DNA of 64,000 nt from contig NZ_LT904904.1 of assembly GCF_900199725.1 (NCBI RefSeq), positions 2,656,048-2,720,047 on the forward strand. Reading direction: 5' to 3'. Within the stretch, counting starts at the first letter, position 1. Each line of letters starts with the position of its first letter. The notes under the pieces are model-generated. The model did not search any database, was not told the DNA's origin, and was given only the letters and a program-made list of their open reading frames with translations. This document shows, piece by piece, positions 7,460-53,955 of the stretch. Source of the DNA: Cytobacillus massiliigabonensis. GTDB lineage: Bacteria > Bacillota > Bacilli > Bacillales > Cytobacillaceae. The position numbers and the translations under genes were made by a program.

Positions 7460-8389
7460 ATGCATATTAAAAATATACTTGTGGCTGGAAAATATGAAAA
7501 ATTTTTTCAAGAACGAATTTTTAATAAAAAATCTCAAAACTTCCGATTTATTCCTGTTGATGATATAACATTAGATGACTTAACATGGGCAGATGCATAT
7601 GTTGGGTCTAAACCGTGTCCTAACTTCAATCCTTCAAATTTGAAATGGGTTCATTCCTTTAATGCAGGTGTAAATAACTTTTTAGAGGTGGAAGGATGGA
7701 AGGAGACTACCCTTCTTACTCGTACCATTTGTTCTTTTGGTGAAAGAATTAGTGAGTATTGCTTGAGCTATGTATTAAGAGATCTCCAGTTCCATAAGTA
7801 TTTTAAGGAAAAACAAGATCAAAAGGAGTGGGTTCCTAAAACGCCAAAAATGGTGAAGGAACTAACCATTGTTATTTTTGGCACAGGAGAAATTGGACAA
7901 GCAGTTGCAAAGACATTTCATCATTTTGGTGCGACCGTATATGGCGTATCTCAAAGTGGAAAGCAAAAGGATTTTTTCAAAGAGGTCGAAAAACCTGCTT
8001 ATGCGGGTCCTTTACTAACACTTGCAGATTGGGTTATAAGCACACTGCCTTCAACAAAGGAAACATATAAACTTTTTGATGACGAATTATTTAACAACTT
8101 TAATGGGGCTGCTTTTATCAATGTCGGCAGGGGAGCGACCGTTGATGAAGTAGCACTGATTGAAGGATTAAATATAGGTAAAATAAGGTGTGCTGTATTA
8201 GACGTACTTACTAATGAACCTCTTCCCGAGGACTCAGAATTATGGTTAAGAGAAGATATTATTATCACCCCGCATATTTCAGCAGTTACAGATCTAAATG
8301 AAGCCGTTTCATACTTTATGGACACATTATATAAAATTGAAAGGAACGAAAAATTGCATAATCAAGTTGATTTTTTAAAGGGGTATTAA
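7460..8389 (+). CDS. D-isomer-specific 2-hydroxyacid dehydrogenase, GhrA-like (putative glyoxylate/hydroxypyruvate reductase)
   Basis: This 309-residue NAD(P)-dependent oxidoreductase has a Rossmann motif GTGEIG at 141-146. The catalytic triad of the family is visible as Arg in NVGRG, Glu in LTNEPLP and His in ITPHISA. It would reduce 2-oxoacids such as glyoxylate or hydroxypyruvate to the D-hydroxyacid in the cytoplasm. A GGAGG site precedes the ATG. It is followed by glycerate kinase and a second dehydrogenase on the same strand, which points to glycerate metabolism. The N-terminal substrate domain is divergent, so the exact substrate is uncertain. Confidence 0.85.
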   Translation: MHIKNILVAGKYEKFFQERIFNKKSQNFRFIPVDDITLDDLTWADAYVGSKPCPNFNPSNLKWVHSFNAGVNNFLEVEGWKETTLLTRTICSFGERISEYCLSYVLRDLQFHKYFKEKQDQKEWVPKTPKMVKELTIVIFGTGEIGQAVAKTFHHFGATVYGVSQSGKQKDFFKEVEKPAYAGPLLTLADWVISTLPSTKETYKLFDDELFNNFNGAAFINVGRGATVDEVALIEGLNIGKIRCAVLDVLTNEPLPEDSELWLREDIIITPHISAVTDLNEAVSYFMDTLYKIERNEKLHNQVDFLKGY

Positions 8390-8457
8390 ATTACTAGTTT
8401 ATGGTATATTAAATGCATAGAGATTAAATGTCTGAGATTAATAATGGAGGTGCTTCA

Positions 8458-9597
8458 GTGAAAATTGTCGTTGCACCTGATTCTTTTAAAGGAGCCATCT
8501 CCGCCCGTGAAGTTTGTACATCTGTGAAGACTGGTGTGCATCATGTTTTCCCAAAGGCTGAAGTAATTGAGATTCCTTTAGCTGACGGCGGAGAAGGGAC
8601 AATGGAGAATCTCGTCTATTCTTCTGGAGGTTCCTTCATAGACTTTGAAGTTAAGGGGCCAATTGGGAAACCGGTATTGGCAACTATCGGTTTATTAGGG
8701 GATCAAGAAACTGCGGTTATTGAAATGGCTCAAGCTTCCGGTCTTACACTCTTATCGAAAGAGGATAGAAATCCATTGCTGACAACTAGTTATGGAACAG
8801 GTGAACTAATCAAGCATGCACTGGATCGAAATTATCGCAAGTTTATTATTGGACTTGGCGGAAGTGCAACAAATGATGGAGGTACCGGGCTGCTGAAAGC
8901 ATTAGGGGTGAGATTTTACTCAAATGATGGATATGAACTAGCTGATGGCGGGGCAGCTTTAATAAACTTAGCATTTATAGATGATTCAGCTTTAGATCCG
9001 CGAATAAGAGAGTCGTCCTTTTTAATTGCAAGTGATGTAACAAATCCATTATGTGGTCCAAATGGAGCTTCAATCATTTTTGGTCCGCAAAAGGGTGCTA
9101 CTGCCCGTGACGTTATTAAACTGGATCAAGCATTATTTCATTATAGTAAAATTGTTCAGAAGCAAAAACATATGGATCTCTGCAAGATTGTTGGCGGGGG
9201 AGCAGCTGGCGGAATAGGTGCAGCCTTAGCTGCCTTTTTCCAGACTACGATCCGATCTGGAATAGAAGTTGTTATGGGTGCAATTCAATTTGAAGAGAAG
9301 ATAAAAGGGGCAAATCTCATCATTACAGGTGAGGGAAACCTTGATAGTCAGACACTCTCTGGAAAAGTAATCACAGGGGTTAGTAAAATAGCAAAGAAGC
9401 AGCATATCCCGGTAATTGCTCTCTGTGGAAGCTTCCTTCTAGATAAATATGAAATAAACGAACTAGGAATTAGCAGTGCCTTTTCAATTGTACCAGGTCC
9501 ATGTTCACTTGAAACAGCAATAATAAATTCTTCAAAGTGGACAATCGAGCGAACGGAGTTAATTATGCGATTACTAAAGGATGTCAAATTAAACTAG
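8458..9597 (+). CDS. Glycerate kinase, GarK/GlxK type
   Basis: This 379-residue kinase of the glycerate kinase type 1 family phosphorylates D-glycerate, feeding carbon from glyoxylate into glycolysis. The canonical N-terminus (KIVVAPDSFKG) begins at a GTG start at 8458, with the site TGGAGGTG well placed. An ATG ten codons upstream is rejected because that site lies after it. Family motifs seen are PLADGGEGT, the glycine-rich GLGGSATNDGG, and GEGNLDSQTL near the C-terminus. It sits 68 bases after one hydroxyacid dehydrogenase gene and 12 bases before another, probably as one operon. Confidence 0.93.
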   Translation: MKIVVAPDSFKGAISAREVCTSVKTGVHHVFPKAEVIEIPLADGGEGTMENLVYSSGGSFIDFEVKGPIGKPVLATIGLLGDQETAVIEMAQASGLTLLSKEDRNPLLTTSYGTGELIKHALDRNYRKFIIGLGGSATNDGGTGLLKALGVRFYSNDGYELADGGAALINLAFIDDSALDPRIRESSFLIASDVTNPLCGPNGASIIFGPQKGATARDVIKLDQALFHYSKIVQKQKHMDLCKIVGGGAAGGIGAALAAFFQTTIRSGIEVVMGAIQFEEKIKGANLIITGEGNLDSQTLSGKVITGVSKIAKKQHIPVIALCGSFLLDKYEINELGISSAFSIVPGPCSLETAIINSSKWTIERTELIMRLLKDVKLN

Positions 9598-9609
9598 CAG
9601 GGAGGAACC

Positions 9610-49246: not shown

Positions 49247-49273
49247 AACGGCTCGGTATTGGACTGAGCCGTT
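49247..49273 (+). terminator. Hairpin in the leader of the UvrA-like gene
   Basis: AACGGCTC at 49247-49254 and GAGCCGTT at 49266-49273 form a perfect GC-rich 8-bp stem followed by TGCTTTATT. It is 58 bases upstream of the start codon. It may be a terminator for upstream transcription or an attenuator in the leader. The weak U tract leaves this open. Confidence 0.6.
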
Positions 49274-49331
49274 TGCTTTATTAGCACCATTATGTGGCAA
49301 TACTAGATCTAGTGAATGGAGAGGATGCCGA

Positions 49332-52300
49332 ATGAAAATAAATCAATTAATTGCTAACAATATTAACCGTTTAGATACCGTCTTACCGGAAGATCAATCA
49401 TTAGGAATTGCCGGTTTGTCAGGATCTGGTAAGACGACTTTCTGTCAAACAATTGGTGAAGAATCTAAGAAACGTCTTGTTTCCTTATTACCAAAGGCTG
49501 ATTATCAATATTTATTCTCTGATATCTTGGAAACAAATTTCAGTGCCATTAAGATGGAAGAGATGCCTTTAGTGCTTTTTCTCGGAAGATCATCCATTTC
49601 TTCAAATCCGCGTTCAACCATTGGCACACATACAGGTGTATTTACAGAGATTCGCAAGCATCTTGCTGAAACATTTAATCTATCACCAGAAGTTTTTTCA
49701 TTTAATAATGAATTAGGTTGGTGTCCAGCTTGTAAAGGACGCGGCACGACCAAAAATATTGAATGTAAAAAGTGTGAGGGAAAGCGTTTTAATCCGGAAG
49801 TGGAGCAATATAACATAAAAATTTGGAATCAGCCACATAGTATTTCCGATATCAATAATCTAAGCATAGAATTGATTCACTCCCTTGCAGAGGAATTACA
49901 TATAAATGAAGAGAAACAGAAAGTTCTTCGAAATATTATCAATATGAATATCGGTTACTTAACATTGAATCGAATCATGGGTACATTGTCAGGCGGAGAA
50001 TTAACACGGCTGTTCTTGGCAGAATTCATGGCAGTAAGTGAAAATACCGTTATTATTATTGATGAAATCTCAGTTGGTCTTGATCATCAAACACTACTGA
50101 ACATTTTAGATGAGATAAAAAAATTAGGCTTTAAGAATCAAATTTGGCTTATTGATCATTCTGACACAGTACTCGATCTAACAGATGAGCAATTATTTTT
50201 TGGCCCTGGCAGCGGGAAATATGGCGGGAAAATTGTGGAAGAGTCACCGCGTCCACAACCAATCTATTGGGAACGAAATGAGGCAACACCAACAGAATAC
50301 TATCAATTTAAAGATTTATATTGCCGTAATATTCAAATGGCTGAATTTCAGATTCCGAAAAATAGACTTGTTACCGTAACGGGGGAATCGGGATGCGGAA
50401 AATCTACACTTGTCAATGAATGCATTGCCAAAGATTTTCAAGAGAGATATCCAAAAGATAAGCTTGTAATGGTAGGGCAGGATCGAAACCAATCGATTAC
50501 CAGTCTGTCAACCGTTGCAACCTTTCTTGATATTAAAAAGAGACTCACAAAATATAGTGAAGATATTGATGATATTTTTGAGCGCTCGATTGAAGATATC
50601 CTTGATGAACTTCCTAATGAAGACATCGCCTATAAACGCTTGAGCCTATTAATCAAACTTGGACTTGGTTATTTGACATTAGAAAGAAAGACACAAACAT
50701 TATCGACTGGTGAATTTCAATGTGTGCATTTAGTCTCGGAACTATTTTCAAAAACTAGAAATCCTCATACACTTTTTATTTTTGATGAGCCATCGAAAGG
50801 TTTATCACAAAATATTTTAAATCAATTCATAGACAGTGTCAGGGGCATTTTGAAAGATGAGTCTGTTTCGATCATTATGATTGAACATAATGCCTATATG
50901 ATGGAAAGCTCTGATTTTATCGTAGATTTTGGTCAACGAAAGAATGAACCAATCACACAACTTGATGTTGTTCGTCATGATGTCTATTATGAAATGAAAA
51001 ATAAGGAAGAAAGTAAACTGCCAGCGTCAATATCGTCCACACTCCATTCACAAAAGGGCATTACGTATTTAAAAGAAAGGCATATTGACTATTTTAAAGA
51101 AGCAGAAAATGTCTATAAGGGCGGTATATTAAAAAGCTTAACATCCATGGCCAGGCTGATTTATGGCGAATACGATTCTAATAAAATTGCACCGGTTATT
51201 GCCATTGACCTTGAAAGGCATTTGTATAGTCAATATAGCTTCCTTTATGAAATGGGCGGCTTGATTAACCATATTATTGCTTCACATCCGACCAATAAAG
51301 ATACGAGAAGCTTTGACTTCTATTCACAGGCCAATCATTGTCCCTCATGCTCTGGACGTCTTAAAATTGAAATATTTGATAAGGATTTGGTCATGCAAGA
51401 TAAAAATCTTTCATTTAGTGACGGTTTATTCTATCCAGAAATAATGGACGTATTAAAATTCTATCAAATCCCTAAAATAGAATTTCTATTTGAAGAAATA
51501 AAAAATGAGCTCGGTCTTGATCTGACGAAAAGCTATAATGAGATGTCAGATGAAGAAAAGCATACATTTTGGTATGGGTATTTTGAAAAGTCCTTTTATG
51601 ATAAAAAAGGCAAGGCACGAAGAACATGGGTAGGATTTAATACTATCATTGGCGGCTATATTGTCATTTCAAAATCAATTATTAAAGAGCATATGAAAGC
51701 TTCGAAGGAAATGATTCTATGTCCAATTTGTGAGGGCGCAGTATTAAAACACGAGAAGCCGCTTAAATTTGGAGACACGGACATTCGTGAAATAATCAAT
51801 CAGCCGATTGACAAAGTTTTGGAAATAACAGGAGACATAACTGCACTTGTCAAACTGAAAGCAATTGTAGGCGGAGAGATGATTTTGACTGAAGATGTCT
51901 CATTACTGCCCAGAAAAACACAAGTTGCATTGAAATTGTTTGAAATAGAACAAGCAAGCTTTACCGGTTATGAAATCGTTTTACAAAACGTCCTTCCATT
52001 CTGGGATACAATTATGAATAATATCGAATCAATTAGCAGCAACAATCAAGTGACTATCTGTGATTTTCCAAATATCTATGAAACAAGAGAAACGATCATC
52101 GATCAGTATTTCACTAATGGAAAATACAAAAAGCTAACTTATGTATATGAAGCATTTGGCTACAAAAAATTAGTAACCCAAATGAATAAAATTAAAAAAA
52201 GCCATCCATGTCCTTTTTGTAAAGGAAAGAAAGTGATTTCAGAAGATAATCTGCATGATGGTGTGTTTAAGTTAACCATTCCTTGTGTTAGTTGTCATGC

Positions 52301-52502
52301 AAGTGGCATAAATAATGAAGGACTAAAGGAAATCGTCGATGGCATCGACGTGCAAACATGGCTGACAGGAAAAGTAAGGGATGTTGTAGATCAAAGTCTT
52401 CGAACAGAAGAAGTCGCAGACATTCCAATCTTCAATCGGATTCGAGAACTAAATAAACAAGATATGATGGCCGTTTATCAGTGCCTCGAGCAAAATAATT
52501 AA
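49332..52502 (+). CDS. UvrA-like dual ABC ATPase with rearranged zinc/insertion domains
   Basis: This 1056-residue protein is related to UvrA, with an unusual order. Module 1 (1-310): Walker A GLSGSGKTT at 28-36, RSTIGTHTGVF, zinc pairs C131/C134 and C145/C148, signature LSGGE near 219, Walker B IIIDE and H266. Module 2 (315-545): Walker A GESGCGKST at 351-359, altered signature LSTGE, IFDEPSKGL and IEHN, with no zinc insertion. The C-terminal 500 residues contain a region like the ABC-I zinc/insertion part of UvrA (C670/C673, then dLSxxxxxxxxyG-like sequence, then C797/C800), plus a four-cysteine module C960/C963/C985/C988. Related UvrA-like proteins occur in DNA repair and in DrrC-type drug resistance, so function is open. 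GGAGAGGATG precedes the ATG. Confidence 0.85.
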   Translation: MKINQLIANNINRLDTVLPEDQSLGIAGLSGSGKTTFCQTIGEESKKRLVSLLPKADYQYLFSDILETNFSAIKMEEMPLVLFLGRSSISSNPRSTIGTHTGVFTEIRKHLAETFNLSPEVFSFNNELGWCPACKGRGTTKNIECKKCEGKRFNPEVEQYNIKIWNQPHSISDINNLSIELIHSLAEELHINEEKQKVLRNIINMNIGYLTLNRIMGTLSGGELTRLFLAEFMAVSENTVIIIDEISVGLDHQTLLNILDEIKKLGFKNQIWLIDHSDTVLDLTDEQLFFGPGSGKYGGKIVEESPRPQPIYWERNEATPTEYYQFKDLYCRNIQMAEFQIPKNRLVTVTGESGCGKSTLVNECIAKDFQERYPKDKLVMVGQDRNQSITSLSTVATFLDIKKRLTKYSEDIDDIFERSIEDILDELPNEDIAYKRLSLLIKLGLGYLTLERKTQTLSTGEFQCVHLVSELFSKTRNPHTLFIFDEPSKGLSQNILNQFIDSVRGILKDESVSIIMIEHNAYMMESSDFIVDFGQRKNEPITQLDVVRHDVYYEMKNKEESKLPASISSTLHSQKGITYLKERHIDYFKEAENVYKGGILKSLTSMARLIYGEYDSNKIAPVIAIDLERHLYSQYSFLYEMGGLINHIIASHPTNKDTRSFDFYSQANHCPSCSGRLKIEIFDKDLVMQDKNLSFSDGLFYPEIMDVLKFYQIPKIEFLFEEIKNELGLDLTKSYNEMSDEEKHTFWYGYFEKSFYDKKGKARRTWVGFNTIIGGYIVISKSIIKEHMKASKEMILCPICEGAVLKHEKPLKFGDTDIREIINQPIDKVLEITGDITALVKLKAIVGGEMILTEDVSLLPRKTQVALKLFEIEQASFTGYEIVLQNVLPFWDTIMNNIESISSNNQVTICDFPNIYETRETIIDQYFTNGKYKKLTYVYEAFGYKKLVTQMNKIKKSHPCPFCKGKKVISEDNLHDGVFKLTIPCVSCHASGINNEGLKEIVDGIDVQTWLTGKVRDVVDQSLRTEEVADIPIFNRIRELNKQDMMAVYQCLEQNN

Positions 52503-52618: not shown

Positions 52619-53311
52619 TTATATTCTATACAGGTTTAATATTGTAGACAATTTATACAGATAGAATAGCCCTTTAAGCTGTTTTTGATTACGTTTATCT
52701 ATATGTTTTTGAATATCATGTATCACTTTTCTTACATCTTCAAGATCATTTTGGTTTAATTCTTTAATCTTCTTTTTTATTTGAATAACCTCATATGAAT
52801 AAAATGCATTCTGAGTTATTTTCATTAATAAGATTTTTATGAGCTGGAATGTGTCAAATTGGCGATAGTTATTTAGTTCTCCTCTTTTGGACGTAATAAA
52901 TCCTTCCTTTTCCCAATATCGAAGAGTTGATGGAGGTATATTTGTCTGAAGTGAAACTTCTCCAGTAGTCATAGAGTTTTCATGCGTCAAGTTTTCCAGA
53001 TAATTATTCACTTGTTCAATAATAATTTTGTCTTCATAATTAGCTACTTGCGCTTTATTTATAATCCAAAGAGCAGCGTCTAGTTCTTTTCGCTGCAACT
53101 TTTTTAGAACAGCTGATGTTATGTCCATTCCAAATCCAGGAGACAGAGCTATAATACACTCAAAATAAGCTAAATGTTCCTCTGTAAATATCCTATAACC
53201 AGTAGATGACCGTTCAGGTTTCGGTACAATCCCTCTTTCTTCATAGCTTCTTAAAGTGCTTGTACTAATATTTAATTTTTTGGCTATATCTATAGGTCTT
53301 ATTTTTTCCAT
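52619..53311 (-). CDS. MerR-family regulator with two tandem HTH domains
   Basis: This 230-residue protein carries a first MerR winged HTH at residues 1-70 (IRPIDIAKKLNISTSTLRSYEERGIV, then TGYRIFTEEHL). A second lies at about 110-175 (TTGEVSLQTNIPPSTLRYWEKEGFI, then NYRQFDTFQL), followed by a helical tail. Normal MerR proteins have one HTH and dimerise through a coiled coil. Here one chain may bind both half-sites or two sites. TTGGAGTG selects the ATG at 53311. It converges on the UvrA-like gene, so it does not share that promoter. Confidence 0.88.
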   Translation of the reverse strand: MEKIRPIDIAKKLNISTSTLRSYEERGIVPKPERSSTGYRIFTEEHLAYFECIIALSPGFGMDITSAVLKKLQRKELDAALWIINKAQVANYEDKIIIEQVNNYLENLTHENSMTTGEVSLQTNIPPSTLRYWEKEGFITSKRGELNNYRQFDTFQLIKILLMKITQNAFYSYEVIQIKKKIKELNQNDLEDVRKVIHDIQKHIDKRNQKQLKGLFYLYKLSTILNLYRI

Positions 53312-53457
53312 GAGCACACTCCAATATGACAACTATACTAATATGTAAAGTTTATCAAATAAAGTATTGTAAATTCAGACATTTCCTCTAAAAACTTTAG
53401 AATTTGCTTCATTGTTGTAAGCTTGATTTGTAAGATGAAAAATATGGAGGGATTCTT

Positions 53458-53955
53458 ATGACAACAGTAAACGTTCAACCGCAGATGACAATCTATGAGT
53501 TAGGAGAAGTGCTATCTACTTATATAAAAGAACACTGGAAAGAAGTACTGAACAATAATATCAAAGAGCTTGAACAGCTATTTCCGGAATATGAAGATGC
53601 AACATACGGCATGTATTTAGATAAACTTATTCCACCAATATGGAAAATAGTAAAAGAAAATGGTTTTCGATCTGCAGAAAATACGAAAGAAGATGACTTT
53701 GTGATTGGAGAGTGTCTACACTTTAGAAATTCAATGGAAAAAGGTAAGTGGGGCACACCTCGTCATGAAAAACGCGTTTTTTGGATTGTGATTGAAAATC
53801 AACATAAAGATAAGATAGGAACTCTACTGTTTGAGTTATCTCATTCACATATTGAGTTTAACTTGCCAGCGCAGCCAAGGTTTCTTCCTTTAAAAGAAAT
53901 TAAACGAGAAGATATCATTAAAAAAATTATTCAACTAGAAGAGAACTTGTCATGA
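53458..53955 (+). CDS. Hypothetical protein
   Basis: This 165-residue soluble protein was not recognised. It has a helical N-terminal half (TIYELGEVLSTYIKEHWKEVL) and a beta-rich C-terminal half with RVFWIVIENQHKDKIGTLLFELSHSHIEF in strands. The ATG follows GGAGGGATTC. It is divergent from the tandem MerR gene and may be a target of that regulator, which is inference only. Confidence 0.65.
   Translation: MTTVNVQPQMTIYELGEVLSTYIKEHWKEVLNNNIKELEQLFPEYEDATYGMYLDKLIPPIWKIVKENGFRSAENTKEDDFVIGECLHFRNSMEKGKWGTPRHEKRVFWIVIENQHKDKIGTLLFELSHSHIEFNLPAQPRFLPLKEIKREDIIKKIIQLEENLS

Follow-up and report, generated by a model that had tools for sequence, protein, structure and literature searches.

The 64,000-nucleotide stretch of the Cytobacillus massiliigabonensis genome analysed here (contig NZ_LT904904.1, positions 2,656,048 to 2,720,047; hereafter the window) carries at 49332-52502 (+) an open reading frame (ORF) that begins at ATG and encodes a UvrA-like protein of 1056 amino acids (aa). 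Its relatives were taken as the best 80 of 164 confirmed loci from a genome-contig scan (L068-L147). The gene was full-length in 78 of these 80, and the 78 proteins were aligned with the window protein (79 rows); L124 and L141, whose frames have no normal N-terminus, were omitted. Mean column identity was 88%, and the relatives were about 72-85% identical, forming a compact family. The P-loop GK, signature GE, Walker B DE and both H-loop histidines were invariant in all rows, as were all 12 zinc-type cysteines; a further cysteine outside the zinc sets, C910, was conserved in at least 90% of rows. The ratio of nonsynonymous to synonymous substitution rates (dN/dS) was obtained with a purpose-written script from the 69 pairs (68 in one region) that exceeded 89% aa identity. 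The median was 0.09-0.17 in each of six gene regions, indicating that the C-terminal half is not decaying. The gene is real and under purifying selection. A terminator-like inverted repeat with a T-rich tail was found at window 49248-49281, 50-85 bases 5′ of the start codon, and differing terminator-like repeats were seen by eye at the same place in relatives, among them L122, L126, L139 and L084. These may mark where upstream genes end, or act as attenuators.

Residues 1-555 (unit 1) hold two complete ATP-binding cassette (ABC) ATPase modules, A and B, with P-loops at 28-35 and 351-358, the signatures LSGGE (219-223) and LSTGE (457-461), a Walker B D/E in both and the histidines H276 and H519. 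An earlier note on this DNA, made from the sequence alone, had placed two ABC modules in the first 545 or so residues, and the complete, invariant motifs bear this out. The motif RSTIGTHTGVF that it named in module A lies at residues 94-104, and no zinc cysteines were present in module B, which it had described as carrying LSTGE without a zinc insertion. The zinc insertion that it saw in module A is present; in one detail the result departs from its ABC-II-like reading, the stretch scoring slightly better on ABC-I (60-61 versus 55-56). The UvrB-binding domain was not found at its expected place; its best hhalign score was 20 (E-value 0.013), against the C-lobe of module A. Unit 1 thus keeps both ATPase modules but is without three UvrA elements, namely the UvrB-binding domain, insertion domain and Zn3 hairpin module.

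The C-terminal ~500 residues contain eight further zinc-type cysteines, while the P-loop and signature motifs are gone. Searched alone, as the earlier note had proposed, residues 560-1056 were similar to UvrA (2r6f, phmmer E-value 1.3e-5). The zinc/insertion part of ABC-I, which had been claimed for about 650-850, was recovered at 656-845 with an hhalign score of 110, whereas none of 100 column shuffles exceeded 29. The Pfam model UvrA_DNA-bind gave an E-value of 2.2e-4 and 21.9 bits, slightly below its cut-off of 23.2, and the cysteine motifs of the domain were FDFYSQANHCPSC (C670/C673) and MILCPICEGAVLK (C797/C800). Residues 600-628 aligned with a UvrA stretch outside this domain, and none of 100 shuffles scored equal or higher. 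The four-cysteine unit noted at 960-988 (C960-x2-C-x21-C985-x2-C) is present. The tail that holds it matched the Zn3 region over 81 columns (0 of 100 shuffles as high), and judged by sequence the unit is a further UvrA-like zinc module, most like Zn3. The predicted-fold match of the C-terminal half spanned UvrA 77-546. As a whole, residues ~594-1056 (unit 2) look like a degenerate second UvrA that has kept the insertion domain and a Zn3-like module, which the earlier note had missed. Coordinates are collected in the table.

Features of the UvrA-like gene, in window positions
Feature	Position	Strand	Basis
Ribosome-binding site GGAGAGGA and spacer	49318..49331	+	read 5′ of ATG; alike in relatives
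Whole gene, UvrA-like protein, 1056 aa	49332..52502	+	ORF analysis, 79-row alignment
Module A, residues 1-320, ATPase core of ABC-I type lacking the UvrB-binding and insertion domains	49332..50291	+	segment scores, tree
Walker A of module A, GLSGSGKT	49413..49436	+	alignment
Short four-cysteine zinc module of module A, C131, C134, C145, C148	49722..49775	+	hhalign, alignment
Signature of module A, LSGGE	49986..50000	+	alignment
Module B, residues 321-555, ABC-II-type ATPase core, Zn3 module missing	50292..50996	+	segment scores, high-scoring segment pair
Walker A of module B, GESGCGKS	50382..50405	+	alignment
Signature of module B, LSTGE	50700..50714	+	alignment
Start of unit 2, residues 600-628, resembling UvrA 54-88 (immediately after the P-loop of ABC-I); P-loop itself absent	51129..51215	+	hhalign 21.8, shuffles
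UvrA ABC-I zinc/insertion (DNA-binding) domain, residues 656-845	51297..51866	+	hhalign, phmmer
Possible degenerate ABC C-lobe, residues 846-940	51867..52151	+	predicted fold alone; sequence signal absent
Zn3-like tail, residues 941-1056, cysteines 960/963/985/988	52152..52499	+	hhalign 31.0, alignment

The upstream neighbours of the gene in its relatives were also compared. An ArsR and/or AHSA1/SRPBCC gene stood upstream in 31/80, a link that the earlier note, which had asked for conserved neighbours, did not contain; in 30 it lay within 1.1 kb on the same strand and in L087 at 1.7 kb. Both occurred as separate genes, overlapping or within 3 bp, in 25 of the 31 loci. Five loci had an AHSA1-cluster protein without a separate ArsR (L082, L089, L111, L117 and L075), which in the first four was a 250-aa, fusion-like ArsR-AHSA1 protein (start inspected in L111), and L125 had ArsR without AHSA1. 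Pfam matches of the neighbour test proteins were AHSA1, ArsR HTH_5 and Polyketide_cyc2, the last from a different neighbour cluster. Locus-to-locus identities tracked those of the UvrA-like gene (Mantel r 0.71 for ArsR and 0.54 for AHSA1; 0 of 999 permutations as high), and the pair is co-inherited with the gene in part of the relatives. On a FastTree phylogeny of the 79 rows, presence of the pair required 15 changes, versus 24.1 with shuffled labels, indicating that it was often gained or lost. The nearest AHSA1 match in the genome of the window was 39% identical and located elsewhere. The dyad GACACC-N4-GGTGTC (at most 2 mismatches) preceded 25 of the 31 arsR or AHSA1 genes, with two sites in 22, and occurred in 1 of 49 other upstream regions, making it a candidate ArsR operator. 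The UvrA-like gene has a promoter-like stretch of its own, TGnTAACAT (at most 1 change; 40/79, shuffles 8.1). A second dyad, CACAAC-N11..14-GTTGTG (at most 2 changes), lay over an extended -10-like box in 25/79 upstream regions (shuffles 0.6) and is a possible operator of some regulator.

Several other candidates were rejected. The promoter box of the UvrA-like gene did not qualify as an ArsR operator, with at most 1/30 above the 99% shuffle level before arsR. LexA control was unconvincing (CGAAC-N4-GTTCG with at most 2 mismatches in 8/79 upstream regions, shuffles 4.6), and for a leader peptide, MAILDLENGE, frame and sequence were not kept when compared by eye. A 939-aa frame of the same genome with an AHSA1 piece proved to be a masked stretch and not a fusion. 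In the same genome, two blocks around a masked stretch, L150:3952-5214 and 8342-9604, hold the same translated genes (dehydrogenase, acetyltransferase, then AHSA1 frames), and short tandem repeats lie at L150:3233-3769. The repeated blocks are either a true duplication or an assembly artefact.

Among known systems, UvrA shares with this protein the two ABC modules with UvrA-type motifs in probable I-II order, the invariant ATPase residues, the insertion domain and the Zn3-like module. It differs in having a UvrB-binding domain, between the ABC-I N-lobe and Zn1, and in carrying the insertion domain in ABC-I and Zn3 in ABC-II, whereas here both follow module B; the score on the NCBIfam equivalog TIGR00630 was 266 bits (cut-off 729.8). 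Class II UvrAs (D. radiodurans UvrA2, DrrC, Ecm16 and plasmid-borne paralogues of ~750 aa) likewise lack the UvrB-binding domain, and the N-terminal half is closest to a plasmid-borne member. However, they are about 750-870 aa long, and in four aligned members the insertion domain and Zn3 stand in ABC-I and ABC-II. Two UvrA-like units per chain are shared with the double-length UvrA of model NF001885 (1809 positions), which we take to be the chlamydial tandem UvrA; the score on it was 153 (cut-off 3054), and here, in contrast, the units have lost complementary parts. Such complementary loss is what a fused UvrA pair would leave after dividing the work. The upstream genes, with their operator-like dyads, correspond to the ArsR-COG3832 (AHSA1/SRPBCC) two-gene module, to which a large UvrA-like third gene has been added. 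The authors who described this pair called it a toxin-antitoxin-like two-gene module and considered antibiotic resistance its most plausible role, citing as an example CalC, a calicheamicin-resistance protein of COG3832 (PMC2701414). Among the special elements of UvrA, those reported to contact DNA are the insertion domain and Zn3 hairpin module (PMC7835731). Ecm16, a UvrA relative without the UvrB-binding domain, was reported to protect against DNA bisintercalators, and to do so in a uvrB knockout as well; resistance needs ATP hydrolysis, and the insertion domain is required for DNA binding and drug specificity (PMC10192343). Among the titles and abstract openings of the open-licence PMC papers listed, neither the present architecture nor a UvrA-ArsR-AHSA1 link was found described.

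On balance, we consider it somewhat more probable than not that the protein is one chain of two UvrA-like units, in which unit 1 supplies the ATPases and unit 2 is a degenerate UvrA that keeps the DNA-contact elements. Because of the resistance proposal for ArsR-COG3832 and the Ecm16 findings, our best guess for its role, made by analogy, is UvrB-independent relief of DNA-bound natural products. A number of results weigh against this. An ABC lobe at 845-945 was suggested by the structural model alone, with a predicted local distance difference test (pLDDT) score of 58-82 in that block; hhalign found no likeness to an ABC lobe there (98 and 97 of 100 shuffles as high), and in pairwise alignment 86/500 (ABC-I C-lobe) and 68/500 (ABC-II) shuffles were as high. 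The tail scored nearly equally on the ABC-I zinc stretch (30.4) and on Zn3 (31.0). The likeness of unit 2 to unit 1 was confined to the zinc stretches (0/60 shuffles as high), with none in the N-flank, middle and end stretches (6 to 46 of 60), so that duplication or fusion can only be inferred. The full-length AlphaFold2 (AF2) model was poor (pLDDT 62, predicted template modelling score 0.37), and the fold search with it effectively covered about residues 13-563. The window copy and 49/80 relatives have no ArsR-AHSA1 neighbour. The GACACC dyad was in 0/30 gaps between AHSA1 and the UvrA-like gene, which leaves ArsR control of the latter unsupported. Lastly, a toxin-antitoxin role for the pair was kept possible by the authors who described it (PMC2701414). 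Two of these points, the missing ABC sequence signal at 845-945 and the weak unit 1-unit 2 likeness outside the zinc stretches, would fit a plain relocation, in which the ABC-I zinc/insertion cassette of one UvrA paralogue moved to the C-terminus and a zinc module was added, with never a second UvrA. We regard this as unlikely, though worth serious weight. Residues 600-628 align with UvrA outside the cassette, the alignment of the tail to Zn3 is 81 columns long, and the fold match covers UvrA 77-546. The nearest kin of the halves also differ among 16 class I and 3 class II UvrA proteins: the N-terminal half was nearest class II (130 bits, best class I 107) and the C-terminal half class I (best 72.8, UvrA of the same genome 44.7, class II at most 32.7), and a fusion may therefore have joined two different paralogues.

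The order of modules A and B bears on a further alternative, a circularly permuted UvrA with ABC-II before ABC-I. Segments were scored with hhalign against a profile of 16 Bacilli UvrAs (scores given as ABC-I/ABC-II). Besides the zinc stretch, module A scored 83/81 for the N-lobe and 118/105 for the C-lobe, and module B 63/72 and 121/132; the sums were 466 for normal and 426 for swapped order. With finer cuts, 5 of 6 module A pieces preferred ABC-I and 4 of 5 module B pieces ABC-II (9 of 11 normal). The exceptions, the TGVF piece 76-116 (ABC-II, 42.3 versus 36.8) and the weak piece 376-412 (leaning to ABC-I, 16.9 versus 12.4), favour permutation, as does the alignment of module A as a single piece along UvrA 616-915; a blastp high-scoring segment pair (HSP) of 97 bits also places module A on ABC-II. 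However, another HSP (469 columns, query 145-534) covers, in a Staphylococcus class II UvrA, the C-lobe of ABC-I and then ABC-II, crossing both modules in normal order; the Zn3 module is missing from the query. In the best tree, A joined ABC-I of two class II proteins (90/81) and B joined ABC-II (82/41), weakly and with long branches; swapping cost 5.6 log units and was not rejected by the approximately unbiased test (p 0.125). The modules probably stand in the normal order I-II, with good but not final support, and permutation is very improbable. Of the shuffled or permuted UvrA proposed earlier, domain shuffling is supported, the insertion domain and Zn3-like module following both ATPases. 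About as improbable is an anti-phage defence ATPase related to MADS Mad3, which would fit the match to the PADLOC mad3 model (118.7 bits), the patchy distribution of the gene and the convergent neighbour at window 52619-53332 (-), a chain of two MerR DNA-binding domains that matched the 60-position mad1 model with 67.9 bits. The mad3 match is unspecific, because the protein is outscored by three ordinary class II UvrA paralogues (203.8, 209.5 and 213.9). In the PADLOC scan of three downstream window genes the other two had no match, and among the immediate neighbours listed the double-MerR cluster recurred in L072 only. Apart from ArsR/AHSA1, no neighbour cluster occurred in more than 15/81 loci. 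A phage origin was rejected as well, since none of the relatives was in viral contigs (55 pattern matches, none confirmed). Window 53458-53955 (+) encodes a DUF6022 family protein.

The best 80 of the 164 loci were all from Bacilli (Bacillaceae 58, Caryophanaceae 15, Paenibacillaceae 5, Thermoactinomycetaceae 2). In the taxonomic family of the organism, 44/193 genomes (own included; 5/25 genera) had a match at an E-value of 1e-40. In the class, a full C-terminal match above 70% identity was found in 11/398 genomes (own included); further matches were two short fragments, one of 89 residues at 76% and one of 60 residues, interrupted by stops, at 53%, and the next ones listed were mostly UvrA-sized frames at 23-31%. 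In the phylum, 3/398 genomes (own included) matched at 1e-20, the other two likewise belonging to the class. One plasmid record, a 1.4-Mb Niallia replicon, carried at least 80% of the query. In addition to an ordinary UvrA, the genome of the window has a frame of 839 aa aligning like a class II UvrA, so that the present product is its third UvrA-type protein. Broken or partial copies were seen in the family scan (G065, G124, G150 and a second copy in G137) and in L124 and L141, which suggests that the gene is dispensable in some lineages.

If the chain does consist of two UvrA-like units with divided work, unit 2 would read DNA where it is intercalated or modified, with unit 1 coupling this reading to ATP hydrolysis. 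As a result the drug would be taken off the DNA, or the site protected, independently of UvrB, for which Ecm16 may serve as a model. In relatives with the pair, the AHSA1/SRPBCC protein may bind the same small molecule and ArsR may control the pair. A bolder form, which we put forward tentatively and would sooner doubt than assert, is a UvrA divided in cis into a pure ATPase unit and a catalytically dead DNA reader, an obligate asymmetric pseudo-dimer; together with ArsR-AHSA1 it would give environmental Bacilli a system that responds to small molecules and removes drugs from DNA without UvrB. The gene is likely a third partner added to the ArsR-AHSA1 module, the function of which was only predicted (PMC2701414). 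The coupling of ATP hydrolysis to damage reading in UvrA is hard to study, both functions being intertwined in one dimer, and in a natural protein that keeps ATPase and DNA reading in different halves, either one could be deleted and examined by itself.
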